From a virus, in the IMG/VR virus record IMGVR_UViG_3300031687_000061, positions 1 to 33,013 of that record: DNA of 33,013 nucleotides; one strand, 5' to 3'. Positions within the stretch are counted from its first letter, which is position 1; each line of letters begins with the position of its first letter. Of the stretch, positions 2,613 to 22,756 are shown one piece after another. The notes below the pieces were generated by a model, which did not search any database, had not been told where the DNA came from, and saw only the letters and a program-made list of their open reading frames with translations. The position numbers were made by a program, and so were the translations under genes.

Positions 2613-4232
2613 ATGGTAAAGACTGCCAAAGAATGTAGAGATGTTTTTTCAGAAATGAAAAACAAAAGAGTTCCTTGGGAGTCTCGATACCAAGCTATTT
2701 CAGATTACCAATTGGCTAGATCTGATTTTCAGCAACAATCACGAAGTAAATCCCCTGAAGACAGCAAGATTTATGACGGAACAGCAATGGACTCATGGTT
2801 CATGCTTACAAATGCCATTCAGGCAATTCTTATTAATACTGAAACAAACTGGGTCTACCTTGATTCATTGGAAGAGTCTGAAACAACCGATGAAGAAGTT
2901 CTTTGGTTTGAAAATGCAAGGATTAATCTTCAAAATATCTTTAGGAGTGATGCTTGTCGTTTCCCAACCCAAATTAACGAAACGCTTGGCGATCTAACTG
3001 GTTATGGTTATGGAGCTATCCATTCTGGTTATGATCCATTTAAACATTCATTGTTTTTTTCTTCTAGACCCATTACCGAAATTTTCATTGATCAAGACAC
3101 AAAAGGAACTGTTGATAAGGTATTTAGGAGATATACGTTAAAAAACGAACAAGCTGAAAGAATTTTTGGAAGCAAAACGCCAGATTTAATATTAAAAGCA
3201 AATAAAGCAGGCAAGGGATTGGAGGAGATGAGTTGGTTACACACATTTAGTCCTCACCCCGATAAATACAATTCAGTTATTTCCTATCAACTCTTAGAAT
3301 CAGAAGGTGATATTGTTACAACTGAGGAGTACGACGAGCTTCCTATCCACGTTGTTCGTTGGAGAACCGATGCAGGGCAAGTCTATGGACGTGGCCCCGG
3401 GGTAATTGCGGATCCCTTTGCGCGTACCCTTAATCAGGTCGTAAAGACGTGGATTAAACAGGCTCAAAAAGCTGTTGACCCTCCACTTCTTGTATCTGAC
3501 GATGGCGTAATACAGGGACCAAAGACTACTCCCGGGGCCATCAATTTTGTAAGTTCTTATTCTCCTGGCTCAATGGAACCTATTCGTCCCCTTAATTCAG
3601 GAGCTAATTTCAGCGTTGCAAACGCTGAAATTGAGCGTCTTCAGAATTCAATTAGAAAAGCTTACCACCATGACATACTTCAAATTACTGACAGCAAAGA
3701 ACTTACTGCTTTTCATGTCCAAGAGTTAACTCAAAGAGCGCAGCAATGGATTGCTCCAGTATTCCAAAGAATTAAGGTTGAGTTAATTCAACCTATGGTC
3801 GAAAGGTCATTGAAGCTTGGTATAGAGAATAGGCTCATTCCAATGATGCCTCCTTCCTTACAAGAGAAAGGCGTTAAGGTTGTTTACATATCGCCTGCTC
3901 AAAGAGCAAATAGAATTCAAGAAGCCGAAGCAACAATGAAAGCTCTTGAAAGAATTATTGCTCTTTCTCAAGTCTATCCAGAAATGCTTGATAACTACAA
4001 TCCTGATAAGGTTGCAAAGACAATTCATAATGACTTTGCGGCGGATCCTTCAATCATGCGTACAACTAAAGAAATTAAAAAGCTAAGGAGTGATCGGGAT
4101 GAAAACAGAGCCAAAATGGCAGAGAAAGAAGAAAATTCTGAAATGCTTCAGCAAGCTCAAAGCCTGACTTCTGCGCCTGATGGCGGCGCTGAAACTGCTG
4201 ACGTTTTAAATCAACTAAGAGGAAGGTTTTAG
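2613..4232 (+). CDS. Portal (T7-like head-to-tail connector) protein
   Basis: The 539-residue length fits the T7 gp8 family. The N-terminal region has the family-like stretches YDGTAMDSWFMLTNAIQA (about residues 54-71) and DLTGYGYGAIHSGYDP (about 126-141). A Trp/Arg/Gly-rich segment (VVRWRTDAGQVYGRGPG, about 247-263) follows, then a long C-terminal helical part. Twelve copies form the ring at the unique capsid vertex through which DNA is packaged and ejected. The last ~60 residues are highly charged. It begins directly after the preceding stop codon and its TAG overlaps the next GTG by one base. Confidence 0.93.
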   Translation: MVKTAKECRDVFSEMKNKRVPWESRYQAISDYQLARSDFQQQSRSKSPEDSKIYDGTAMDSWFMLTNAIQAILINTETNWVYLDSLEESETTDEEVLWFENARINLQNIFRSDACRFPTQINETLGDLTGYGYGAIHSGYDPFKHSLFFSSRPITEIFIDQDTKGTVDKVFRRYTLKNEQAERIFGSKTPDLILKANKAGKGLEEMSWLHTFSPHPDKYNSVISYQLLESEGDIVTTEEYDELPIHVVRWRTDAGQVYGRGPGVIADPFARTLNQVVKTWIKQAQKAVDPPLLVSDDGVIQGPKTTPGAINFVSSYSPGSMEPIRPLNSGANFSVANAEIERLQNSIRKAYHHDILQITDSKELTAFHVQELTQRAQQWIAPVFQRIKVELIQPMVERSLKLGIENRLIPMMPPSLQEKGVKVVYISPAQRANRIQEAEATMKALERIIALSQVYPEMLDNYNPDKVAKTIHNDFAADPSIMRTTKEIKKLRSDRDENRAKMAEKEENSEMLQQAQSLTSAPDGGAETADVLNQLRGRF

Positions 4233-4489
4233 TGAATAACACAGTTTTTGACAAGGAAAAAGCATCACTTTACTCTGCTGTGTTTAATAATCCAGATGGA
4301 AGAAAAGTAGTTGATGATTTAATTAATTTCGTTGGTTACTTCGGGGAAGGTTTTGCAACAGACCCTTATTCTACTAGTTACAACTGCGGTCAAAGAAGAG
4401 TTGTTACCAGGATCTTGAATCTAGTAGGAATGATCCATGCGGTTGATATGGTTAATGAACTAAAAGAAAGGCAAATGATTGATGAATGA
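4232..4489 (+). CDS. Bbp19-like phage protein
   Basis: This 85-residue protein starts at GTG (4232) with AGAGGAAGG a few bases upstream. It has the two-part signature of the Bbp19 family of small podovirus proteins: FNNPDGRKVVDDLINF near the N terminus and DPYSTSYNCGQRRVVTRIL in the second half. The family is named from a Bordetella phage and sits between portal and scaffold genes; its function is unknown. It overlaps the portal stop by one base and the scaffold gene by 8 bases, indicating tight coupling in the head-assembly operon. Confidence 0.8.
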   Translation: MNNTVFDKEKASLYSAVFNNPDGRKVVDDLINFVGYFGEGFATDPYSTSYNCGQRRVVTRILNLVGMIHAVDMVNELKERQMIDE

Positions 4490-5312
4490 GGAAACAGCCG
4501 AAAGCAACGAAGACGGCGAAGTAACAGAAGTTGAATCTGCGCCTACTCCATCTTTTTTGGATGGAATAGATTCTCAATTCAGAGAAGACCCTTCTGTATC
4601 CAAGTTCAATAATGTAAACGATCTTGTTAAGGAACACGTTAATTTACAATCGATGCTTGGGCGCAAAGGCGTCATTGTTCCCAATGCTGAAGATTCTCCA
4701 GAGACTTGGAACAAATACAAATCAGAAATGGGGATTCCTGAAAACCAAGAGGGTTATGAAGTCCCTCCTGATCAAAGCAATGACGTATTTCAAAGACTTG
4801 CAGAAGCATCTTTTAATGCAAATTTAAGTTCAGATCAATACGACAAAATAGTTAATTCTTTTTCGTCCTGGCAAGAATCAGCAGACGAAAATTTATTTAA
4901 AGAAGCAGAGCTAACTACAGAAGAAAATATTTCTGGTTTAAGAAAAGAATGGGGACGATCCTTTGAGGCAAAGACCAATATTGGTGCTTCTGCTTTAAAT
5001 AAATTGACTGAAGGCAACCCTGACACCTTGGCGTCAATAGAGCTTTCAAACGGAACGCAATTAGGAAACGAACCTGCTTTCATTAAAATGATGGCAGAAA
5101 TTGGAAATTCTTTTCAGGAAAAAGGTTTGCTAGAAGGAACAAATACTAATTACGGTGCAATGAGCCCAGAAGAAGCCAACGCAAAGCTTTCTCAGATTAT
5201 GTCTGATCCAGAAAAAGCAGCGATCTTGTTTAGCCAAGAATTTCATCCTTCCAAACAAGAGCTTGTCAAAGAAAGAGAAAGATTGCTATCATTTGCATAT
5301 CCTGATAATTAA
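4482..5312 (+). CDS. Scaffolding (capsid assembly) protein
   Basis: This 276-residue acidic, helical protein lies directly before the major capsid gene. Residues 20-60 carry a pattern common to podovirus scaffolds: FLDGIDSQFREDPSVSKF followed by NVNDLVKEHVNLQSMLGRKG. The rest is charged with coiled-coil tendency and a basic C-terminal end (KQELVKERERL). Scaffolds guide capsid subunits into a procapsid and then leave. ATG at 4482 is taken as the start; a TTG at 4479 directly precedes it and has slightly better spacing from AAGG (4468-4471). Confidence 0.85.
   Translation: MNEETAESNEDGEVTEVESAPTPSFLDGIDSQFREDPSVSKFNNVNDLVKEHVNLQSMLGRKGVIVPNAEDSPETWNKYKSEMGIPENQEGYEVPPDQSNDVFQRLAEASFNANLSSDQYDKIVNSFSSWQESADENLFKEAELTTEENISGLRKEWGRSFEAKTNIGASALNKLTEGNPDTLASIELSNGTQLGNEPAFIKMMAEIGNSFQEKGLLEGTNTNYGAMSPEEANAKLSQIMSDPEKAAILFSQEFHPSKQELVKERERLLSFAYPDN
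5283..5309 (+). promoter_or_regulatory. Weak candidate promoter before the capsid leader
   Basis: TTGCTA (5283-5288) and GATAAT (5304-5309) resemble -35 and -10 boxes but have a short 15-base spacer. If active, transcription would start near 5316, just before the structured leader. The match is marginal, and readthrough from the upstream operon is an equally good explanation of capsid transcription. Confidence 0.25.
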
Positions 5313-5321
5313 TGCAATCTT

Positions 5322-5450
5322 TAGGATATCGGGTAGCTTTTACGAGTCCGATGCTTGGGTAAAGAGCCCTGCCACAGAGGCGTAAATCTGTAGGGAAAGG
5401 GTCCGATTGCGGGCAGCCCCATCCTGTTAAACTCTAAGTAAAACAGGAGG
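5322..5450 (+). promoter_or_regulatory. Structured 5' leader of the major capsid gene, possible translational switch
   Basis: This 143-base gap holds several complementary segments. A closing stem pairs AGGAT (5323-5327) with ATCCT (5421-5425). ATCGG (5328-5332) can pair with either copy of CCGAT (5348-5352 or 5403-5407). CCCT (5367-5370) plus ACAGA (5374-5378) pair with TCTGT plus AGGG (5387-5395). GGG (5411-5413) pairs with CCC. Competing with the closing stem, TCCTGTT (5422-5428) pairs with AACAGGA (5442-5448), which masks most of the ribosome binding site AGGAGG (5445-5450). The pairing is read from the sequence; regulation is inferred. I do not recognise a known riboswitch class. Confidence 0.55.
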
Positions 5451-5455
5451 TAGCT

Positions 5456-6370
5456 ATGTCTACCCAGATTACAACTTCCTTTATTCAGGGATTTAAGCAG
5501 GGCATTGATATCCTTTCGCAACAGAAGGGTTCTAAGCTCCAGAACACCGTTCGTAATGAAATGCAGTCTTCCAAGCAGGACCATTACGACCAGATTGGTT
5601 CGACCGCTGTTGTGCAGCGAACGAGCCGACACGGCGATACGCCAATTGTCAACACGCCCCATTCGAGACGAAACGTCACGCTCAATGATTACGAGTGGGC
5701 GGATCTGATTGACCGTCAGGATCGTCTTCGACTGCTAAACGATCCAGGCAACGCTTACTCGACGAATGCTGCATATGCGATGGGACGCAAGAAGGATGAA
5801 CTTATCCTTGATGCTTTCACGAAGACGCAGACGACGGGTGAAACGGGCTCAGGAAGCGCTGGCGCAGTCAATGTTGCCTTTGGGTCGGCGAGTGGCTCGG
5901 ACGATGGTCCGATTACGGTTGAAAAGCTGATTACGGCAAGAACTTATCTTATGGCTGAAGATACCAGCGATGAAGATATGTTTTGTTGTTTAACTGCTTA
6001 TCAGATTGCTCAGCTTCTCGACGACAATCGAATCAGCAGCTCTGACTTCAATACCGTCAAGGCGCTTGTTGCTGGACAGATTGACACCTATTTAGGGTTT
6101 AAGTTTATCCAAATTGCACAGTCTGTTAATCCAAATACAGATGGTGCCGCTGATGGTGCCGCGGACAGCAATCGTCCTGTTTTCTTCTGGAAGAAGAGCG
6201 GGATCGTTCTTTCTACTGGAGTTGGCGAAGCAGGCACTTCTGCTCGAATTACTGAACGTGCGGACAAGAGCTACTCGACGCAGATTTATTACTCTGCTTC
6301 GTTTGGTTCGGCCCGAATGGAAGAAGCTAAGCTAACGATTGGTTATGCGGACGATAGTGGTCCAGCGTAA
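5456..6370 (+). CDS. Major capsid protein
   Basis: This 304-residue protein follows the scaffold gene and has a strong ribosome binding site (AGGAGG, five bases before ATG). It resembles the podovirus phage-capsid family, which is expected to adopt the HK97 fold. Typical parts are FIQGFKQGIDILSQQ near the N terminus, RRNVTLNDYEWADLIDRQD (residues 64-82), which matches the family's spine region, and a Gly/Ser-rich loop (about 125-145). Hundreds of copies form the head shell. Its DNA is visibly richer in G+C, with many CGA/CGT and AAG codons, than its neighbours, which fits high expression. It is flanked by a structured leader and a terminator. Confidence 0.88.
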   Translation: MSTQITTSFIQGFKQGIDILSQQKGSKLQNTVRNEMQSSKQDHYDQIGSTAVVQRTSRHGDTPIVNTPHSRRNVTLNDYEWADLIDRQDRLRLLNDPGNAYSTNAAYAMGRKKDELILDAFTKTQTTGETGSGSAGAVNVAFGSASGSDDGPITVEKLITARTYLMAEDTSDEDMFCCLTAYQIAQLLDDNRISSSDFNTVKALVAGQIDTYLGFKFIQIAQSVNPNTDGAADGAADSNRPVFFWKKSGIVLSTGVGEAGTSARITERADKSYSTQIYYSASFGSARMEEAKLTIGYADDSGPA

Positions 6371-6389
6371 TTAATAATTAAACGAGATT

Positions 6390-6430
6390 GAGTTCCCCTA
6401 GAGCAATGTAGTTCTAGGGGAACTCCTTTT
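6390..6430 (+). terminator. Intrinsic terminator after the major capsid gene
   Basis: A perfect 13-bp stem GAGTTCCCCTAGA (6390-6402) pairs with TCTAGGGGAACTC (6413-6425) across a 10-base loop, followed by CTTTT. It lies 19 bases after the capsid stop and should limit readthrough into the next gene. Confidence 0.9.
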
Positions 6431-6436
6431 CACATT

Positions 6437-6462
6437 TCTAGCGCGGTGTCGTGCTAGAGGAG
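6437..6462 (+). promoter_or_regulatory. Hairpin overlapping the ribosome binding site of the next gene
   Basis: TCTAGC (6437-6442) pairs with GCTAGA (6453-6458). The stem takes in the first bases of the Shine-Dalgarno run AGAGGAG (6456-6462) that serves ATG 6471. It could damp translation or protect the 5' end of a processed message. The pairing is seen directly; the effect is inferred. Confidence 0.45.
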
Positions 6463-6470
6463 AAATGAAA

Positions 6471-7016
6471 ATGGCTGTTGTTTATCAGTATTCTAGTCTT
6501 CTTACGGATGGTGCTCAGAATGGCACTGCAAACTTAACTCCAAACACGCAGTTCAGAGCATCTGTTGGCGTAAGTCACGCCAGAATGCGGCTAAAGTATG
6601 GTACTTGTCACATTCCTTTAGATGACGAATCCGCAGGCGAAGACCTTTTGTCTCTTGCTATGTTTGGAAAGAATGATCGAATTTTCAGAATCGACCTTGG
6701 TACTGGAGCTGATCTTTCTAGTGGCAATAACCTAGACATTGAAATTGGTATTTACAATGTTAATGAAGCTGGAACTATTGGCTCACTCGTAGGTAGTAAA
6801 AACAGCCTTGCAGATATTGACGCTGCGGCTGAAGTTACTTTTGGGTCTGCTGACCATACAGTTGCTGCTGCTCGTGGCATTGAGTTGTGGTCTGTTGCTG
6901 GTTTGAGTACTGCTTCTTCTGGTGGCAATTTTATTGTTGCTGCCACTAATGAATCTGGTGATGTTACAACGGCTGGCACGCTTACGTTCCAGTTCCAGTA
7001 CACCGCTGGCGACTGA
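6471..7016 (+). CDS. Probable structural (head decoration-like) protein, unknown
   Basis: This 181-residue protein is Gly/Ser/Ala/Thr-rich and predicted to be mostly beta-strand. It has its own ribosome binding site (AGAGGAG, eight bases before ATG 6471); an ATG at 6465 is too close to that site. It sits alone between two strong terminators directly after the major capsid gene, the usual position and format of an abundant decoration or head protein. No recognised domain or signal peptide is visible; the role is inferred from position and composition. Confidence 0.75.
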   Translation: MAVVYQYSSLLTDGAQNGTANLTPNTQFRASVGVSHARMRLKYGTCHIPLDDESAGEDLLSLAMFGKNDRIFRIDLGTGADLSSGNNLDIEIGIYNVNEAGTIGSLVGSKNSLADIDAAAEVTFGSADHTVAAARGIELWSVAGLSTASSGGNFIVAATNESGDVTTAGTLTFQFQYTAGD

Positions 7017-7023
7017 TTAATAC

Positions 7024-7082
7024 AAACACACAGGGGAGCGGCTCAAGCCGCTTCCCTGATGTGTTTACTTTGTTTTGTTTTT
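7024..7082 (+). terminator. Intrinsic terminator
   Basis: AAACACA (7024-7030) pairs with TGTGTTT (7060-7066), enclosing an inner GC-rich stem AGCGGC/GCCGCT with a tcaa loop. T-rich sequence (7067-7082) follows. It lies just after the stop of the putative decoration gene and isolates it from the tail block. Confidence 0.88.
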
Positions 7083-7096
7083 AAAAGGATTTAATT

Positions 7097-8119
7097 ATGC
7101 CTGCTGGAACTTGGGGGTCAAACGGAAATATTTACAGAGGTTCTGCTGTATGGAACCAAGGTAAACTAGGAGACGATCATGTAAGCACCGAGGGTTACAA
7201 CGCGGCTGGTGTAATTAATTATACAAATGGAATAAACAGAACAGAGCCCTTTAATCAGATTTTAGAAAATAATTCAACTTACAGTAAAAATCAAACAAGC
7301 TCTCCAATCTCAATATTAGACTCACAAAACTGGCAAGAAGCTAAAGACGTATTTATTTTTGCCAAATTAAGAGCTACAGATGTTTTAAATTCCATTAAGG
7401 TTTCGACTGATGCAAAGTTTGACTCCAGTAATTTTTTTCTTGTTAATATTTACTTAGGAGACAGAACCTCTCAAGAACCAATTCTTTGGGATGAAGAAAC
7501 AATTACTACAAACAGTTTGTCAATTACAGATGACGCTGGCAATAATAGAACTAAATTTACTTTTACAACGAGCGATATGATCAATGCTAAGGATTGGTAT
7601 AACGATCAAACAATTACAGTAAGCGGAAGTAGCACTATTTCTTCCGGAACTTACACAATAAAAAATTACACAAGAAATAGCGGATCAACTACTGTCGATT
7701 TTACTCTAAGTTCTAACCCTGCTAATCTTGCTGGTAGCTACGTAAACATAGAAGCAACCTCAACAAATCAAACAGCAACTTTTACTTTTGTTAGAAATAA
7801 GGGAATTAGACATATTTATAGCACTAACACAAATTCAGCAGCAGACGGTTCAATTCCATTAAATGAAGACACTGGTGAAATTATGACTTGGAATGCGGTT
7901 GGCAGATCTTGTCATAGTCTTGGTAAGGAAATGCACGAATACAACAAAGATTATTCTAGTTACGGAAATTTAACTTTCCTAAATAGAACTGCGGATAGAT
8001 TAATAAAGAAAGATGACATTTGTTACCTGGGGTGTTCTTTCCTTAGATCTCCTACGTTTGACGGAGGTGAGACTTCTTCAAGATTAGGATTTTCTGTAGA
8101 CTACGGATCACATCAGTAG
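7097..8119 (+). CDS. Structural protein of unknown function
   Basis: This 340-residue protein is rich in Asn, Thr and Ser and beta-strand-like, with AAAAGG eight bases before the ATG. Residues 130-245 are strongly alternating Thr/Ser/Ile/Val (for example TITVSGSSTISSGTYTIK), typical of Ig-like or fibre-like folds. The N-terminal part has NGNIYRGSAVWNQGKLGDDH. It lies between the head genes and tail tubular protein A, so it may be a head fibre or an adaptor-associated protein. I do not recognise a family. Confidence 0.75.
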   Translation: MPAGTWGSNGNIYRGSAVWNQGKLGDDHVSTEGYNAAGVINYTNGINRTEPFNQILENNSTYSKNQTSSPISILDSQNWQEAKDVFIFAKLRATDVLNSIKVSTDAKFDSSNFFLVNIYLGDRTSQEPILWDEETITTNSLSITDDAGNNRTKFTFTTSDMINAKDWYNDQTITVSGSSTISSGTYTIKNYTRNSGSTTVDFTLSSNPANLAGSYVNIEATSTNQTATFTFVRNKGIRHIYSTNTNSAADGSIPLNEDTGEIMTWNAVGRSCHSLGKEMHEYNKDYSSYGNLTFLNRTADRLIKKDDICYLGCSFLRSPTFDGGETSSRLGFSVDYGSHQ

Positions 8120-14158: not shown

Positions 14159-14793
14159 GTAATTTTTTTAAGACAAACATTGACTTCACTGAAGGTTTGA
14201 TAAAAACTCGCGACCGAATAGATGGCGTTACTGAAAGCCCTTTAACTGAAGGTTTAATGGATAAAAACGCCACTACTGCAAGTCTTTTAGATGATGCTAG
14301 CGCTCCAAAAGCTCCAAAAGCTCCAGAAGCTCCAGCTGCTCCGCCTTCATCAAGTGCGGCTAATATTTCTAAAGGCGCAGGTGCCGTAACGAAAGTTGCG
14401 AGTGCTGCTGTAGGCGTTGTTGAGTCTTTTGATCAAGCTGAAATGAACAATGCAGCAATTAACAATATTGAAAAAGACTTAGAAGCAGGATTGATGCTTG
14501 GTTCTCGGTCTTCTGGAAAACAAAAAGCGTCAGCAGCAGTCACTGGTAACAGGGCAGCTCTTAGTGATATTACAAACACGCAAAGGCAAGCTGATGCTTC
14601 AGCAATGCGAGAAGCAGCAATGGCAGTCTCTCAATTAGAATCAGACACTACTAGCGGCTTTGTAAGCGCTGGTATAAACATGGTTGACTCTGTAGCTAAA
14701 GCTGGTGGAACGTTTGCTTCTATGGGTTCAGGCGCTGCCGCTGAAGGCACCAGCCTCGTCGAGCCGCGCATTTCGGCGAGGGGGATGGCTTAA
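14155..14793 (+). CDS. Internal virion protein, T7 gp14-like by position
   Basis: This 212-residue protein is Ala- and Ser-rich. It has an Ala/Pro/Lys repeat linker (APKAPKAPEAPAAPP, about residues 50-64) and then a long helical part with amphipathic stretches (AGAVTKVASAAVGVVESF). Its length and its place right after the nozzle gene match the gp14 type of ejection protein, which enters the cell envelope and helps form the DNA channel. It overlaps the upstream gene by ATGA and the downstream ATG by one base. Similarity to gp14 is by composition and position, not by clear motifs. Confidence 0.65.
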   Translation: MSNFFKTNIDFTEGLIKTRDRIDGVTESPLTEGLMDKNATTASLLDDASAPKAPKAPEAPAAPPSSSAANISKGAGAVTKVASAAVGVVESFDQAEMNNAAINNIEKDLEAGLMLGSRSSGKQKASAAVTGNRAALSDITNTQRQADASAMREAAMAVSQLESDTTSGFVSAGINMVDSVAKAGGTFASMGSGAAAEGTSLVEPRISARGMA

Positions 14794-17700
14794 TGGCAAA
14801 TAAAATTTCAAATTCTATTGCAGGATTAGCTAATACGTTTAATAAGATTGGAGACGATTTAGAAGCAAAGGAAAGAAGAGAGGAAGTAAAAAGAAAAGAA
14901 GATGATTTAATTGATCGTAGAAATAAAGACGCTGAAAACAGAATTCAGCTTGCTGACGCTTCTGCTGGCTTAACTGAAAAAATTGAAACAGGCTATACTC
15001 AATTTGATGCAAAACTTGAAGAGCAAAGATTTGAAGGTTTACTTGCTGGTGAGGAAGGGAAAAGCTCTTTTGATTCGATAGATTTTTTAAAAAATTATGA
15101 GTCTGATATTATGGATCCGTTTGAGTCTAATTTTGATATTGAACAAACTGACTATAATCAAGATCAAGTTGCTCAAGCAAGAGCAGCTTACACTAAAACT
15201 CGTCAAAACGTCAGAAGCCAATTAAGAGCAAAGTATGCTGAAAACCAAACTAAACATATTAATAAAAGGTTTACTGCAAGATCTGCTGTTTTACTTGATG
15301 TTTTAGATGGAAAAGTTGATAGCGGTGAAGATCCAGTAGCTGCTTACAATACGTATGTTGCAGGTATTACTGAACTTCAAAAAATAGTAGGTGAACCAAT
15401 TGTAATAGGTCAGTCTGCAGACGGAGAGCTAATCACTCATAGTCCTTTCTTGGGTGAAACTGCTATTCAAATGTCTCTTCGTTTTAATGGAGCAAGACAA
15501 ACTGTTTCCAGTTTGGTTTCTGCTGGCAAATTTGAACAATCTCAAGATTTTTACGAAGGCTTAACTACTGGTACAGAGGGCAGTAGCGTTAAAGATTTTA
15601 TTGAGAAACTAACAGGTTCTGAATCTGGAGGAAGATCAGATGCCTCTTATACTAATGAAGAAGGTGATTCATATGTAGGTTTAATTCAATTTGGTGAAGA
15701 TAGACTTACTGATTTTAGAAATGCAACTAATACGGAATTTACTCAAGAAGAATTTAGAAACGATGTAGATTTACAAGACGAAGCTGGCATTTGGCATATT
15801 AAAGATATTGATAAAAGAATTGCAAGTCAAAAAGCAAAAAATCCAGACCTTTTTAGAAGATACAATAATCTTGACGGTCTTCGTGCTGTTGCTCATCTTA
15901 GCGGGATGGGCAAAAACTTCGTTTCTTTTCTTAAAGGAAAAGGCAATGTTAAGGATGCACTTGGTACAAGCCAACAAGATTATTACAATCTGTATGCTAA
16001 TGGTGCTAAACAAGGCACTTCTAGTCTTCATGGAGTAAGCAAACAAGGCGTTTCTTACAGAAAACTTCTTAGAGATTCATTTGAAGAAGAAATGAAAGCA
16101 GAAATCAAGAATATTACTGAAGGAGTAGGAGCATCCGAAAGCCAAGTTCTTTTATTAACTGAAGAACACGACATTGATCCTACTAACGAAGAGAATTTTG
16201 CCAAACTCAGACAATATATAGAAAGTCGCAAAGCTGTAGTAGAACAAGCTTTAGAATTTGATTCAGACAACCCCCAAATGAATATATTAGATCCACAGCA
16301 AAAATTTGCTTTAGAGCGTCACGTATATGATTTAGTCACCGGCAAAGTCCAAGCTTCTACAAATCGCGTTTCTCCTGCAAGTGCTGCTGCGGTTATGGCT
16401 AAAACTCCAGTTGGAAGCAGAGCGCCGAAGCTTTCTCAGTTAATTGCTCAACAGGGTAGTGGAGAAATTCCTGAAGCAATTCTTACCCCAGTTATAGGAA
16501 TGCTTGAATCTCCACTTGTTTCTGATCCAAGAATAAAAGCAAAACAAATACAAGACAGAAGGAATATGGTTACCCTTTTAAACAAGCATGCTAAAGATGG
16601 CAGAATTCCTACATCATTGCAATTTTCTATAGGTACAAACTTTGCTCGGTTTTTAGCAAGAAACCCAAATATTTCTGATGACGATATTTTAAAATTTGCT
16701 TCATCAACTATTGACGACAAAATTAAATATGAACAACCGTTTGTAGATGAAGACGGTGTTGTCGAAAGAACTAGCATTGACATTGGGGCACTTGCAAATG
16801 TAATTCAAGGTGGCGGCATTTTTAATAAATTAGAGGAAGGATTCATAGAACCAGGTACTACGTCTGAGCAAATAAATTTAACTACCGCAATACGTGTTAA
16901 ACAAGATTCAGGCAGGAATATGAGTGACTCTATTGCAGATGTTAATGCAAGTGTTCAAATTCAAAGAAATGCAAACGTGCCGGTTAGACCTAATTTTGTT
17001 AGAGCTAAGACAGAAGACGAAGCAAGGCTTTATGAAGTTGGGTTAGTAAATTTAGTAGCTAACGCAGCAGGCAAGACTTTTAATACCCAAAAAGAATTTA
17101 TTGAGTTTGCACAAAGTTTTGTTGCAATTCCACGAGATCCTTATGATCCCAATGATAATGAGTATAGAATTGTTACTAGAGGAACCAATCGACCTATGCT
17201 GGATAATCAATACATTGATGTAAGCGAAGTATATGCGCTCAGAAATAAAGGAATTGCAAGTATTGATCAATTAATGGATAGCAAAATTCAAGTAATGGAT
17301 GATGTTTCAGAAGAAATTGGAATTAGAGATGTTGCAAGCAGATGGGACGGGGGAAAAGATACAGAATGGTTTTATCGTACATTTTCAGATGCTTTTGACT
17401 TTGAAAACGTAGATCAACTTGGCGCGCTAGGAGCATTTGATAGCAATGGTGATCGTTTTTCAGAAGCAAATCTTTACAACCAAACTAATATTAACGCTTC
17501 TGGAAATCCAAACCAAACTATTTTAAACGTATTAACTAACAGCGAAAACGTTCTTGAAGCTATGAAAAAAAGTGATCCTGCAACTTATAAAGATATAGTT
17601 AGATTAAGAGAAAACCTTAAAAGATTTGGCAGTCTTTCTCATATTCAGATTTTCCCAGATTACATGGAAGAGATTTCAGCAGCAATGCTTACAAGACTTT

Positions 17701-19400
17701 ACATAAGGGCTTCGTTAGTTGACGACAATAAAGTTGGTAAATTAGAACTCACCCCAAGAGATATTCAAAGTATTGATCTTGTAGATTCCCTTCCTTCTGG
17801 AGAAAGGGAAAGACTTGAAGCTCAAGGCAGAAAAAATGGTTTAGCAGTTGCTTTTTCTAAGCTTTACCCTGAAGCAGCGGCAGCAGATAAAGCAGTTCCA
17901 GGAACTGCTTTTGTTAAATCAATGATGGAAATGGCAAATTCAGGTGCTTCACTGTTTGCTGGTTTGTCTAGGTACAATACAACGGCTGTAAACGCAATTG
18001 CTTTAGGTCAACCAATGCCAGATCTTAAAAACAATAGACAAAAAACTCTTGATAGTTCTTATGACAAACCTATTGCTATGGGTAGTGCAAGACTTAATTC
18101 TAAAAGGTTTTTATCTATTAGAGAGTCAACTGTTGACGGATTTATTGAAGCAGCGGTTAAAAACAGTAGTGAAAACGAACCTCTAATCATTTCAAGTGAA
18201 AATGTAAGTCCCAACGATTCAACTAACGCAGCAGGAGATCTTGCTAATAATTTAATTGGTAGAGCTGTGAATGGTAATCTACAGGGTGGAACAAGTTTCC
18301 AAATACTTGATAACGCTGGAGCTTCATTAAGTATTGAATCTAGAGTAGTTGATGGTGATACTGTTTCAATAACTTCATCGAATGGAGAGCAAGTAATTAT
18401 TCACAACCACATGCCTGAAGACACTCTTTCCTTAAACGAATTAACACCTATTACTTTAAAGTTGCCCGAAGAAACTGCCGTAAGGGTGGTAGGACAAAAC
18501 GCACCAGAAGTTAAAAAAGCTTGGAGAGGAGAACCTGGAGAAGAAGGAGGTAATGAAAGTTACGTCTTTATGGTTGAGTCTACTAAGGGTAAACAAGTGT
18601 ACGTTCAAGTTTTTCCGACTGTCGATGGAAGAGACTTGATGAAAGACAACTACAACAGAGTTCTTGGAGGATTGTCAGTTGATGGGGAAGATTTAACTGC
18701 ATCATCTCTTAAAGCTGGTTTAACTAAAACTTTATTTATGAGTGGGTTTGGCATTGAATTTGGTGTTGAACAAGCAGAAGAATACGCTTTAGCTGCACAA
18801 CAAGGTAACGATTTTGCTTTAGGATTGTATTCAGAAAAATCTCCTACTGTAGAACGAAAAGCATATTCACACTTAGAGCAACAAGCTTTAGAGAACAAGA
18901 AAGGGAAAAACTCGCCTCCCTTCCAGCCTCTCTTTCTTTCTGTTCCAGACGGCAATGGCGCTGGTTTTCTTATTGGAAACAGTTATCCAGATTTAGGTAT
19001 TCCCGAAGTTGATTTAAACAACGCTAAACACACTGAGACTTTGATTCAGCATTTTAGAAAATTAAGCAAGAAAAGGGAATTTCTTCCTTTTTCTGATGAA
19101 GCATCTGCTAACTCATTTATTGCTGAAAGCGCAAAATACATTTTTGACTCAAACGTATCACCTGTTTACAAATCAGTAAGAGCAGGAATGAGGGAGCATA
19201 CAAATAGAGTTTACGTACAAAATGAAACAGACATGCTTATAGAAGAATTTCCAAATTATACGGGTATTCAAATTGCACAAGCAGTTCGTAAATCATCATA
19301 CGGAAGATCAAGAAATTATTTTCATGTCGATGATCTTAGAAGAATTTTAGAATCAGAATCTTTGGGCTACATCCCCATGTTTACCAACGGAGAAAATTGA
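14793..19400 (+). CDS. Internal virion protein with transglycosylase and SNase-like nuclease domains
   Basis: This is a 1535-residue ejection protein. Residues 1-120 are a charged, coiled-coil-like region. Residues ~265-420 form a lysozyme/transglycosylase-like domain: GSESGG with likely catalytic E277, GLIQFGEDRL (296-305) and DGLRAVAHLSGMGK. It would open peptidoglycan during ejection. Residues ~1180-1310 resemble a staphylococcal-nuclease (TNase) fold: VVDGDTV (1185-1191), VRVVGQNAPE with R1231 and E1239, then DNYNRVLGGLSVDG with R1289. These match SNase D21, R35, E43 and R87, while the D40 position is Asn. A ~30-residue loop separates the first two motifs. It sits between the gp14-like and gp16-like genes. 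Enzyme activity is inferred. Confidence 0.8.
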   Translation: MANKISNSIAGLANTFNKIGDDLEAKERREEVKRKEDDLIDRRNKDAENRIQLADASAGLTEKIETGYTQFDAKLEEQRFEGLLAGEEGKSSFDSIDFLKNYESDIMDPFESNFDIEQTDYNQDQVAQARAAYTKTRQNVRSQLRAKYAENQTKHINKRFTARSAVLLDVLDGKVDSGEDPVAAYNTYVAGITELQKIVGEPIVIGQSADGELITHSPFLGETAIQMSLRFNGARQTVSSLVSAGKFEQSQDFYEGLTTGTEGSSVKDFIEKLTGSESGGRSDASYTNEEGDSYVGLIQFGEDRLTDFRNATNTEFTQEEFRNDVDLQDEAGIWHIKDIDKRIASQKAKNPDLFRRYNNLDGLRAVAHLSGMGKNFVSFLKGKGNVKDALGTSQQDYYNLYANGAKQGTSSLHGVSKQGVSYRKLLRDSFEEEMKAEIKNITEGVGASESQVLLLTEEHDIDPTNEENFAKLRQYIESRKAVVEQALEFDSDNPQMNILDPQQKFALERHVYDLVTGKVQASTNRVSPASAAAVMAKTPVGSRAPKLSQLIAQQGSGEIPEAILTPVIGMLESPLVSDPRIKAKQIQDRRNMVTLLNKHAKDGRIPTSLQFSIGTNFARFLARNPNISDDDILKFASSTIDDKIKYEQPFVDEDGVVERTSIDIGALANVIQGGGIFNKLEEGFIEPGTTSEQINLTTAIRVKQDSGRNMSDSIADVNASVQIQRNANVPVRPNFVRAKTEDEARLYEVGLVNLVANAAGKTFNTQKEFIEFAQSFVAIPRDPYDPNDNEYRIVTRGTNRPMLDNQYIDVSEVYALRNKGIASIDQLMDSKIQVMDDVSEEIGIRDVASRWDGGKDTEWFYRTFSDAFDFENVDQLGALGAFDSNGDRFSEANLYNQTNINASGNPNQTILNVLTNSENVLEAMKKSDPATYKDIVRLRENLKRFGSLSHIQIFPDYMEEISAAMLTRLYIRASLVDDNKVGKLELTPRDIQSIDLVDSLPSGERERLEAQGRKNGLAVAFSKLYPEAAAADKAVPGTAFVKSMMEMANSGASLFAGLSRYNTTAVNAIALGQPMPDLKNNRQKTLDSSYDKPIAMGSARLNSKRFLSIRESTVDGFIEAAVKNSSENEPLIISSENVSPNDSTNAAGDLANNLIGRAVNGNLQGGTSFQILDNAGASLSIESRVVDGDTVSITSSNGEQVIIHNHMPEDTLSLNELTPITLKLPEETAVRVVGQNAPEVKKAWRGEPGEEGGNESYVFMVESTKGKQVYVQVFPTVDGRDLMKDNYNRVLGGLSVDGEDLTASSLKAGLTKTLFMSGFGIEFGVEQAEEYALAAQQGNDFALGLYSEKSPTVERKAYSHLEQQALENKKGKNSPPFQPLFLSVPDGNGAGFLIGNSYPDLGIPEVDLNNAKHTETLIQHFRKLSKKREFLPFSDEASANSFIAESAKYIFDSNVSPVYKSVRAGMREHTNRVYVQNETDMLIEEFPNYTGIQIAQAVRKSSYGRSRNYFHVDDLRRILESESLGYIPMFTNGEN

Positions 19401-22400
19401 TGCCAGTTGTAGACATTTTTGGCAATCGAGTTACTGGTCAAGGTCTTGCGACAGAGCCTACCTATAACTTTGCTGAAAAAATGAGCGCAGCATCAAACAT
19501 GACTGTTCTTGGTTCTATGTTTAAAGGCTTAAAGGTTACGCCAGAAGACGAAAGAGCTGCTCGTCATTTTTCTGGATACGGAACGTCTCCAGAAATTGAC
19601 GGAGATGTTAGAGACTACAGATGGATGCAGGAAAAAAGACAGATTATATCTGACTTTATTCCCGTTATGCAGGAAGAACGAAAAGAGCTTCGACAACAAC
19701 CAATTACAAATGAGTCTATTGCTTACTTAATGGAAGCAGACACTTATCAACAGTTTTTAAATAGACGAGGCGTTATCAACGCAAACGCTAAAGCAAACGC
19801 TGTTTTTCAAGAACACCCAGCGGCTGTTTTTAGCAGCAGCATTGCAATGTCTTTAATTGAGCCTTGGAATCTTGCGGGTTTACCTTTGGCTTTGGTCAAG
19901 ACTGGTTCTAAGGTTGCCAGCGCTGCTCGCATGGGTGCCTTTGGGGCAGCCCAGGCGAGCGTTGAAGAAGGTGTTCTTCACTACAACGATCCAAACAGGA
20001 CCGTTGGTCAATCGCTTATTAGCGTTGGCGCAGCAGGTACGATTACTGGTTTATTTGGAGCTTACTTAGGTAAAACCAAAGGAAGTCAAACCGAAGCATT
20101 AGAAGAAGTTACTAGACGAATTAAAAGTATTGATGACGAAGGTCGTGTTGTTATTGATTTAGAGAATGATTTAATTGATCCTTCTTTGACAACTATCAAT
20201 TTAAACTTAGCAACTGAAGAAGAGATATTAAAATCTTTTAGTAACTTACCCGGTGTAGGCAGAGCTGTTGCTAAGAAGATCATTCAATTAAGAAATGAAA
20301 GAGTAAGCGAAAGCTTTGAGTCTTTAGATGATCTGCTTGACGGAAGCCTTGACGCAAACACACTTGCTAAAATAAATAAAATTATTGATAGCGGTAATTA
20401 CCACGCTAACGGAGTGGCCCTTAGTGAGTCGGGTAAGATCGTAGGGAGTTACGGTGTAGAGAAAATTGCAGCGTTAAGTTCTCCGCTTATGAAACTTACT
20501 CAAAGTCCTTTTCCTGAAGTCAGAAGAGCAGCTCAAGAGTTAATGCAAACTAACTTTAGAACAACTGACAATCTAAAAGGCGGAGTAAACAAGATAAGTC
20601 TTGAAGAAATAATGGATCAGAATCAACAACTTGGAAACAAGTTGATTGATGACATAGAGTTTTCTTATTACTCGTACATGAACCCTGGTAAAGAAGCAAC
20701 TGACTTTGTAAGAGGAAGAGGCGGCAGGCTTTTCCGGCAAGCCGGACAGCTTGCTCAAAACTTAAGGCAAGCCAACGTAGATCAACTTTCATCTAGGCCA
20801 TTCCAAAGACCCGGCAAGTTGAGTTTTGATGAATACAAAGTTGCTGTTTTTGAACACAGAACAGGATCTAAGGTAAGCACTGATCCGAACATTATTAATG
20901 CTTCAAAGCATTACGATGAGTTTTTTGACTCAAGGGCTTCAGAGTTTAAAGAGTTATTAAAAAAACTTTATAACGGAGAAGAAAACCACTGGATAAACAC
21001 AGTTAAATATACTCACAGGATATACAACAAGGGTCAGATCGCAGAAAGCCCTGAAGCTTTTAGGGACTTTTTAATTGACCAAGCTTTAAAAAAGTACGGG
21101 GGAAGGGAAGGTGCGGAAGCCGCGCTTGGCGTTCCTCTTCCAGAAATGAAAAGAATATTTGAAAGTTCAATTAGAAAACTAATTGCTTCTCCAGAAGATA
21201 GACTTATTTTAGAAGAGGTTTTTGAACCCGCTAAAAGAGGCGCTTCTAAAGACAGGCTTTGGACTTTTATAGATGACGCTGACTTATATAGAACTAACTT
21301 TGCAGTTAAGGATATTGAAGCAATTGCTAATTCCTACATATCAGGCCCACTTGCTGACATAGATTTCTTTAGAAAGTATGGGACTTTTGATGTAGATGAA
21401 ATTGCTAATAAACTAAGAACTGCAATTGATTCTCGTATATTAAAGAGTGGTGTAGATATAGACGATCTTACTTCTGAAGCTTTACGTAAGACAGATAAGG
21501 ATCTTGAGCTTTTTAAAAACATGCTAAGAAGAGTAAGAGGGACTTACATGGACCCGAACTCTCCGCTGCCTGGAAGTACGCAAAGAGTTTTAATGGACAA
21601 CATTAAAAAGTTTAACAATCTAAGGATAGGTGGAGGCTTTGCGATTAAGTCTTTGCCTGACATTGGACGATCTGTAATGTTCTTAGGATTAAAAAGAGCA
21701 TACGGTCCAACAATACAAGGATACGTTGGAAGAAACGCCCAACTACTAGAGCAGTTGAAAGCTTCCCAAAGGGAGCTTTCAACTATTGGAGTAGGGAACG
21801 AGATTAATTCTTCTCAAATAATTTCACAGTATACGAATACCAGCATGACTAATATTACAGGCAATGCTTTTACTGATCTTTTAGGCAAAGCAAATAACTC
21901 AATGTTTATTTTGAACGGTCTAAGCGTATGGAATCAACACATGAAGCGCGTAGCTGGTGTAGGCGTTGTTGATAAGATTATTCACTCTGGCGCTATGAGG
22001 AAAGCAGGCAAGCTTTCTGAAAAAGAAATGGCAAACATTAGAAGATTAGGAATATCTGATAGAGATCTTGACGACATTTATTCTGAGTATTTAAAACATG
22101 GTCAATCTTACAAGGGTGTTCACCTTCTTAATTTTCAAAACTGGAGTAAGAAGGCAAGGTCTTCAATGGATTCTTCTGGTCTTACATTAGACAGAAAAAT
22201 GCAACTTGCTGTAAAAAGAGAAGTAGACACAATCATTGTGACCCCAGGCAAAGGCGACATTCCTTTGATTATGGAAAACTCTTACGTCAGTATGATTGGT
22301 CAATATAGAACCTTCCCAATTGCAGCAATGATGAGGCAGACCGTTCCATTAGCTCAAAACATGAACAAGAACGCTATGGCTGGACTATTCATATCAATGG

Positions 22401-22756
22401 GTGCTGGAATTATTGCATCTCAGTATTCTTCTTTTGCAAGAGGAACACAGCATGATGATGATTCTTGGGAAGATTACCTTTGGGAGTCTCTTGAAGATAC
22501 TGGCAATCTTTCTACAATAGGTGAATTCGGAAACTTTGCACAAATGATTCAAAAGGGAAATCCGGCTCTTGGTGGTCCTACTCTGACGGGTGCAATTGAT
22601 GTTGGTAAAACAATTGCAGGAATGTCTAACCCCGAGGGGATGAATGAATTTGAAATAAGAGCAGCTCAAAGGCTTGTGCCTATGTTTGGTCTTTATCAGA
22701 TGGTAAAGGCTTTGCCCGTTGGTGTGGCAACTGGAATTGAAAGTTTAATAGATTAA
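19400..22756 (+). CDS. Large internal virion protein with ComEA-like helix-hairpin-helix module
   Basis: This 1118-residue protein is last in the ejection-protein trio, the position of T7 gp16. ATG 19400 is preferred over the adjoining TTG because GGAG lies seven bases upstream. Residues ~263-330 form a helix-hairpin-helix module of the ComEA type: INLNLATEEEILKSF, LPGVGRAVAKKIIQLR (G285, G287) and FESLDDLLDG. This is a sequence-nonspecific DNA-binding fold. Hydrophobic Ala/Gly-rich segments (about 140-240) and one near the C terminus (AGLFISMGAGIIASQ) could insert into the membrane. It probably helps form the trans-envelope DNA channel; the HhH would contact the passing DNA. Confidence 0.8.
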   Translation: MPVVDIFGNRVTGQGLATEPTYNFAEKMSAASNMTVLGSMFKGLKVTPEDERAARHFSGYGTSPEIDGDVRDYRWMQEKRQIISDFIPVMQEERKELRQQPITNESIAYLMEADTYQQFLNRRGVINANAKANAVFQEHPAAVFSSSIAMSLIEPWNLAGLPLALVKTGSKVASAARMGAFGAAQASVEEGVLHYNDPNRTVGQSLISVGAAGTITGLFGAYLGKTKGSQTEALEEVTRRIKSIDDEGRVVIDLENDLIDPSLTTINLNLATEEEILKSFSNLPGVGRAVAKKIIQLRNERVSESFESLDDLLDGSLDANTLAKINKIIDSGNYHANGVALSESGKIVGSYGVEKIAALSSPLMKLTQSPFPEVRRAAQELMQTNFRTTDNLKGGVNKISLEEIMDQNQQLGNKLIDDIEFSYYSYMNPGKEATDFVRGRGGRLFRQAGQLAQNLRQANVDQLSSRPFQRPGKLSFDEYKVAVFEHRTGSKVSTDPNIINASKHYDEFFDSRASEFKELLKKLYNGEENHWINTVKYTHRIYNKGQIAESPEAFRDFLIDQALKKYGGREGAEAALGVPLPEMKRIFESSIRKLIASPEDRLILEEVFEPAKRGASKDRLWTFIDDADLYRTNFAVKDIEAIANSYISGPLADIDFFRKYGTFDVDEIANKLRTAIDSRILKSGVDIDDLTSEALRKTDKDLELFKNMLRRVRGTYMDPNSPLPGSTQRVLMDNIKKFNNLRIGGGFAIKSLPDIGRSVMFLGLKRAYGPTIQGYVGRNAQLLEQLKASQRELSTIGVGNEINSSQIISQYTNTSMTNITGNAFTDLLGKANNSMFILNGLSVWNQHMKRVAGVGVVDKIIHSGAMRKAGKLSEKEMANIRRLGISDRDLDDIYSEYLKHGQSYKGVHLLNFQNWSKKARSSMDSSGLTLDRKMQLAVKREVDTIIVTPGKGDIPLIMENSYVSMIGQYRTFPIAAMMRQTVPLAQNMNKNAMAGLFISMGAGIIASQYSSFARGTQHDDDSWEDYLWESLEDTGNLSTIGEFGNFAQMIQKGNPALGGPTLTGAIDVGKTIAGMSNPEGMNEFEIRAAQRLVPMFGLYQMVKALPVGVATGIESLID

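Follow-up and report, generated by a model that had tools for sequence, protein, structure and literature searches.

The protein at the gp16 position of the window, by which we mean the whole stretch of DNA analyzed (a 33-kb IMG/VR contig of 33,013 nucleotides), contains, around residues 264-335, a segment of the ComEA helix-hairpin-helix (HhH) type. Sequence comparison confirms this as a genuine match, more than chance though modest in strength. As judged from the same comparisons, the block is an insertion, specific to one lineage, in a gp16-type ejection protein, since three relatives carry it and the wider family and T7 gp16 do not. Our best explanation, to which we give a probability of about 0.45, is that an accessory DNA-holding HhH module was inserted in one marine phage lineage, at what would be the cytoplasmic mouth of the entry channel.

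The gp16-Position Protein and Its Neighbor

Terminase, portal, capsid, and tail proteins are ordered in the window as usual in a short-tailed phage, and the closest terminases of isolates, from phages of Rhizobium, Microcystis, Pelagibacter, and others, are 42-51% identical. We take the window and the related contigs to be marine, going by their sample numbers and terminase kin. The open reading frame at 19397-22756 (+) encodes 1119 residues if it is started at the TTG at 19397; the ATG at 19400, which shares bases with the stop of the upstream gene, is the likelier start. Residues are numbered throughout with the TTG at 19397 as the first. The relevant features are as follows.

14793..19400, + strand: gp15-position protein, 1535 aa, adjoining the gp16-position gene
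15555-16004, + strand: peptidoglycan-hydrolase-like part of the gp15-position protein (tblastn)
18480-18746, + strand: SNase-like part of the gp15-position protein (Pfam SNase PF00565)
19400..22756, + strand: gp16-position ejection (internal virion) protein, 1118 aa from the ATG (phrog_342, phrog_16310)
19802..20074, + strand: hydrophobic segments, residues 136-177 and 202-226 (Kyte-Doolittle), counterpart of T7 gp16 TMH I
20186..20401, + strand: HhH insertion, residues 264-335 (HHH_3 and comE matches; in three relatives, not in the wider family)
20246..20260, + strand: hairpin LPGVG of HhH 1, residues 284-288, followed by RAVAKKII (from the sequence)
20336..20392, + strand: degenerate second hairpin and helix, residues 314-332, LDGSLDANTLAKINKIIDS (aligned to the second HhH of ComEA 8dss)
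21437..22714, + strand: conserved gp16 C-terminal region, residues 681-1106 (phrog_342 match; hhalign to T7 gp16)

In profile searches, the gp16-position protein matches phrog_342, "internal virion protein with endolysin domain", over residues 681-1106 (E 3e-51) and phrog_16310 (E 1.5e-42). It can be aligned end to end with ejection proteins from five phages (20-23% identity), and hhalign pairs its C-terminal region with T7 gp16 887-1148 (E 2.5e-5). By profile and full-length alignment it is a gp16-type ejection protein, and we infer from these matches that it is present in the virion and ejected into the host.

A second DNA-handling module had been proposed for the neighboring gp15-position protein, in the form of an SNase-like domain, and it proves real as a sequence match: Pfam SNase PF00565 recognizes a slice of the protein with E 4.1e-5 and 24.4 bits, over the cut-off of 21. 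The corresponding slice of one relative (G002) gave no Pfam match to SNase. The peptidoglycan-hydrolase-like part of the same protein was found by tblastn to Sulfitobacter phage peptidoglycan hydrolases/endolysins, the best match being a related phage protein at 5e-10. This part thus sits in the gp15-position protein; in T7, it is at the gp16 N-terminus. Lysozyme activity has been reported for the gp15-like K1E gp35 (PMC8954989).

Sequence Evidence for the HhH Segment

The sequence-only reading had placed a ComEA-like HhH at residues ~263-330 of the gp16-position protein, and profile searches bear this out. Its pattern, INLNLATEEEI...LPGVGRAVAKKII...FESLDDLL, corresponds to residues 267-314 of the open reading frame. 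Pfam HHH_3 matches residues 266-315 with E 7e-5 and 23.3 bits, short of the curated cut-off of 27, and of four weaker matches at the same spot, three are to HhH families and one is to DUF655. NCBIfam comE (TIGR01259) matches with E 6.4e-5 for the whole protein and 5.6e-6 on the slice, again under its curated cut-off, as is the score of every Pfam and NCBIfam HhH match. The block of four members aligns by hhalign with E. coli YbaV (E 1.3e-4), and, scored against a profile built from the two canonical copies, YbaV exceeds every one of its own shuffles. Among PDB chains, the segment matches EEPD1 (E 7e-4) and ComEA 8dss (E 0.03), the latter alignment spanning both HhH units. A six-frame translation of the whole window contains the hairpin motif characteristic of HhH, [h]xGhGxxxAxxh, a single time, at 20246 as LPGVGRAVAKKI, and all four copies of the block retain it; 608,000 residues of shuffled sequence contain it about 13 times. 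When the block alone was used in tblastn against 50,697 phage records, nothing was found at E 1, and the block of P0004, the homologue from the relative G001, gave only weak matches (best E 0.07). In the collection of papers searched, none combines helix-hairpin-helix, ejection protein, and phage.

The ComEA pattern itself stands in part. The first hairpin is present, but the second GxG hairpin is absent, with DGSLD in its place in the window, DDPDL in P0004, and AGLPE and AGLPQ in P0005 and P0006, the homologues from the other two relatives, and the signature lysine of ComEA is also missing. In ComEA proteins, that lysine, which is K63 of the V. cholerae protein and K164 of the B. subtilis one, matches the motif in its degree of conservation (PMC3879209, PMC9747964). 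Its column, located via the numbering in these two papers and the GIG motif, is occupied by Val in the window protein, by Thr in P0004, and by Arg in P0005 and P0006. EEPD1 has an identical RAVA at the positions covering this column. The HhH 1 segment has a net charge of +3 to +5 in each of the four copies, and the whole 72-residue block of the window is slightly acidic (8 K/R vs 11 D/E). Because the lysine is replaced by Val and hairpin 2 is degenerate, we regard ComEA-like DNA binding by the block as plausible at most.

AlphaFold models of the block, with pLDDT 46-50, are too poor to confirm its fold or orientation. Modeled alone from a 4-sequence alignment, the block has a mean pLDDT of 46, a low confidence. 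Within the whole protein (9-sequence alignment), its predicted helices 274-282, 290-301, and 320-332 come in the expected order at pLDDT 25-54, and the first two flank the hairpin LPGVG in this low-confidence model. Foldseek and VIA searches with these low-confidence models gave no significant match. The weak Foldseek matches of the block included several HhH proteins (MBD4, RecR, Rad51, and OGG1) and were given no evidential weight.

Distribution of the Block among Relatives

Direct searches with window proteins as single queries found no close relatives, and no prophage relatives were found among bacterial genome contigs. Since single-protein queries found none, relatives were sought through the portal and terminase, and these searches yielded three contigs with a gp16 homologue, one of the homologues being incomplete. 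In G001 (3300020473_000065), which is 44% identical, the canonical motif reads SIPGVGKKTAQLIVKLRN, and HHH_3 was found independently at the same place (E 4e-7; with the whole protein, P0004, E 4e-4 and 20.8 bits, under the cut-off). The columns that hold the window motif in the alignment read NIVGLGRKRAEKLV in G002 (37% identical) and KIHGLGKKRAEIFV in G003 (28% identical). These divergent copies were recognized by neither Pfam nor NCBIfam, and their scores against the canonical profile are close to those of shuffled sequences, so that apart from position their likeness is marginal; we call them HhH because the motif stands in the same columns while being rare in shuffled sequence. Block identity is 41% between the window and G001 and 71% between G002 and G003. 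Conservation of the block is about equal to that of its flanks, one pair reaching 71% vs 59-66% in the flanks, and all four copies retain the GxG hairpin and the basic residue that follows it, despite divergence elsewhere in the block.

All 16 wider relatives are without the block, as is T7 gp16. This set comprises homologues from Vibrio, E. coli, Klebsiella, and Alteromonas, a spring virome, IMG/VR contigs, and the pelagiphage Hodr, and includes several near-duplicates. In 15 of the 16, the block site holds 17-35 residues, in most cases a linker of the form VGAAxV..TT. The Hodr protein (record positions 3612-7355) instead has ~94 unrelated residues there, and T7 gp16 has an unrelated stretch of its own. 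Among cultured relatives, the Pelagibacter phages Baldr and Hodr have the motif in neither large protein, and the searches turned up no phage in culture that carries the block. The locus tags of these two records seem to be swapped, with EXVC031PHodr tags in the Baldr record (OQ414636) and EXVC032PBaldr tags in the Hodr record (OQ414635).

Placement Relative to the Membrane Segments

Kyte-Doolittle analysis gives hydrophobic segments at 136-177, 202-226, 989-1014, and 1092-1114 of the window protein, that is, two putatively membrane-crossing regions (136-226 and 989-1114), as in gp16-type proteins. In T7 gp16 the segments are 319-373, 386-413, 1132-1158, 1188-1213, and 1251-1271, plus 894-913; the two sets correspond in order, with T7 894-913 as an extra, and a family HMM matches T7 gp16 295-558 with E 6.6e-6. 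The HhH starts ~38 residues past the segment equivalent to T7 386-413. In a review that assembles the T7 structures into a composite, gp16 comprises TMH I (243-410), a host-cytoplasmic gp16-C (411-1118), and TMH II (1119-1290); gp16-C binds DNA independently of sequence, and the behavior of point mutants cited there points to a clamp exerted by gp16-C on the genome at about 850 bp (PMC8954989). That gp16 reaches into the cytoplasm is also reported elsewhere (PMC11784390). Because the block follows the TMH I counterpart and T7 gp16-C is modeled as cytoplasmic, the block is probably on the host-cytoplasmic side, at the start of gp16-C, rather than periplasmic, in an analogy with a composite T7 topology to which homology across the HhH region is weak and distant.

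A Possible Role in Genome Entry and Its Alternatives

The explanation that we favor takes a ComEA-type HhH module to have been inserted directly behind the first membrane-inserting segment in one short-tailed phage lineage. Several ejected copies would cross the inner membrane, and the module would end at the cytoplasmic mouth of the channel, by analogy with T7. There, HhH 1 would grip the phosphate backbone of the incoming dsDNA without sequence preference, and a ring of copies would supplement the DNA clamp already ascribed to gp16-C. Such a ring may resist back-slip, or it may brake entry until transcription pulls the genome in. The demonstrated part of this account comprises the HhH match, conservation in the lineage, the fact that the block is inserted, and where it lies with respect to the hydrophobic segment; the HhH matches, the block in three relatives and its absence in wider ones, the gp16 homology, the adjacency to the TMH I counterpart, the cytoplasmic DNA clamp modeled for T7 gp16-C, and the net positive charge of HhH 1 all favor it. 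What we infer beyond this is how the protein is threaded through the membrane, that the module binds DNA, and that it works as a clamp or ratchet. The acidic block, the Val in place of lysine, the degenerate hairpin 2, the unrecognized divergent copies, the low-confidence models, and the weak homology to a T7 topology that is itself a composite count against the account.

The HhH might instead serve the virion or its assembly, packing in the core against the packaged DNA or adjacent ejection proteins or helping these proteins to assemble, with no DNA holding during entry. Ejection proteins are packed beside DNA in the head (PMC8954989), the wider family manages without the block, and hairpin 2 and the ComEA lysine have been lost, all of which would suit such a role; the GxG hairpin and the following basic residue, kept in every copy despite divergence, are easier to reconcile with contact to nucleic acid than with a free protein surface, and we consider this alternative somewhat unlikely. 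The same losses, together with the acidic overall charge, could also mark the block as a leftover or spacer, a former HhH that still folds, has lost DNA binding, and fills a tolerant insertion site, as the unrelated inserts of Hodr and T7 gp16 at this site would suggest. A conservation equal to or over that of the flanks and the retention of the motif in all copies speak against a mere filler, which we think distinctly unlikely.

The original proposal, in which the HhH grips or ratchets DNA across the periplasmic part of the channel like ComEA in transformation, fares worse. It has the sequence likeness to ComEA on its side, and the topology of the window protein is a prediction by analogy with T7; against it, the block follows the TMH I counterpart, T7 gp16-C is placed in the cytoplasm (PMC8954989), and the signature lysine is missing. 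We hold a periplasmic grip to be improbable, and less likely than holding on the cytoplasmic side.

A discrete, removable HhH module at the predicted cytoplasmic channel mouth would offer a defined piece for mutation and assay in asking how short-tailed phages hold and meter the leading end of their genomes at the inner membrane. A ratchet function has so far been ascribed only vaguely to gp16-C. The HhH insertion also suggests a site open to domain swapping: because Hodr and T7 gp16 carry different unrelated stretches there, the junction at the HhH position may, on these alignments, be an insertion site for different modules. The fuller proposition, that gp16-type proteins exchange modules at the junction following their first membrane segment and that this lineage received there a ComEA-derived, cytoplasmic-side ratchet ring acting on the entering genome, is speculative and, in our estimate, unlikely.

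Comparison with Known Systems

The best single PDB sequence match of the block is the HhH domain of EEPD1 (PDB 9yi2), with which it has LPGV.RAVA in common; EEPD1 is otherwise an unrelated protein of the endonuclease/exonuclease/phosphatase family. The window protein resembles T7 gp16 and phrog_342 in gene position, length class, C-terminal region, and first hydrophobic segment. It differs from T7 gp16 in lacking the N-terminal transglycosylase domain, the peptidoglycan-hydrolase-like part being in the neighbor instead, and in carrying the HhH block, which T7 gp16 does not have. With ComEA (TIGR01259, HHH_3, 8dss) it shares the pattern IN.N.AteeEi..LPGvG..vAkkII..R...F.s..DLl and the first hairpin, and the block differs in its degenerate second hairpin and the Val at the K63/K164 position. 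Whereas ComEA is a small secreted or membrane-anchored competence protein, the HhH of the window is internal to a virion protein of 1118 residues without a signal peptide and, if the analogy with T7 holds, probably lies on the cytoplasmic side.
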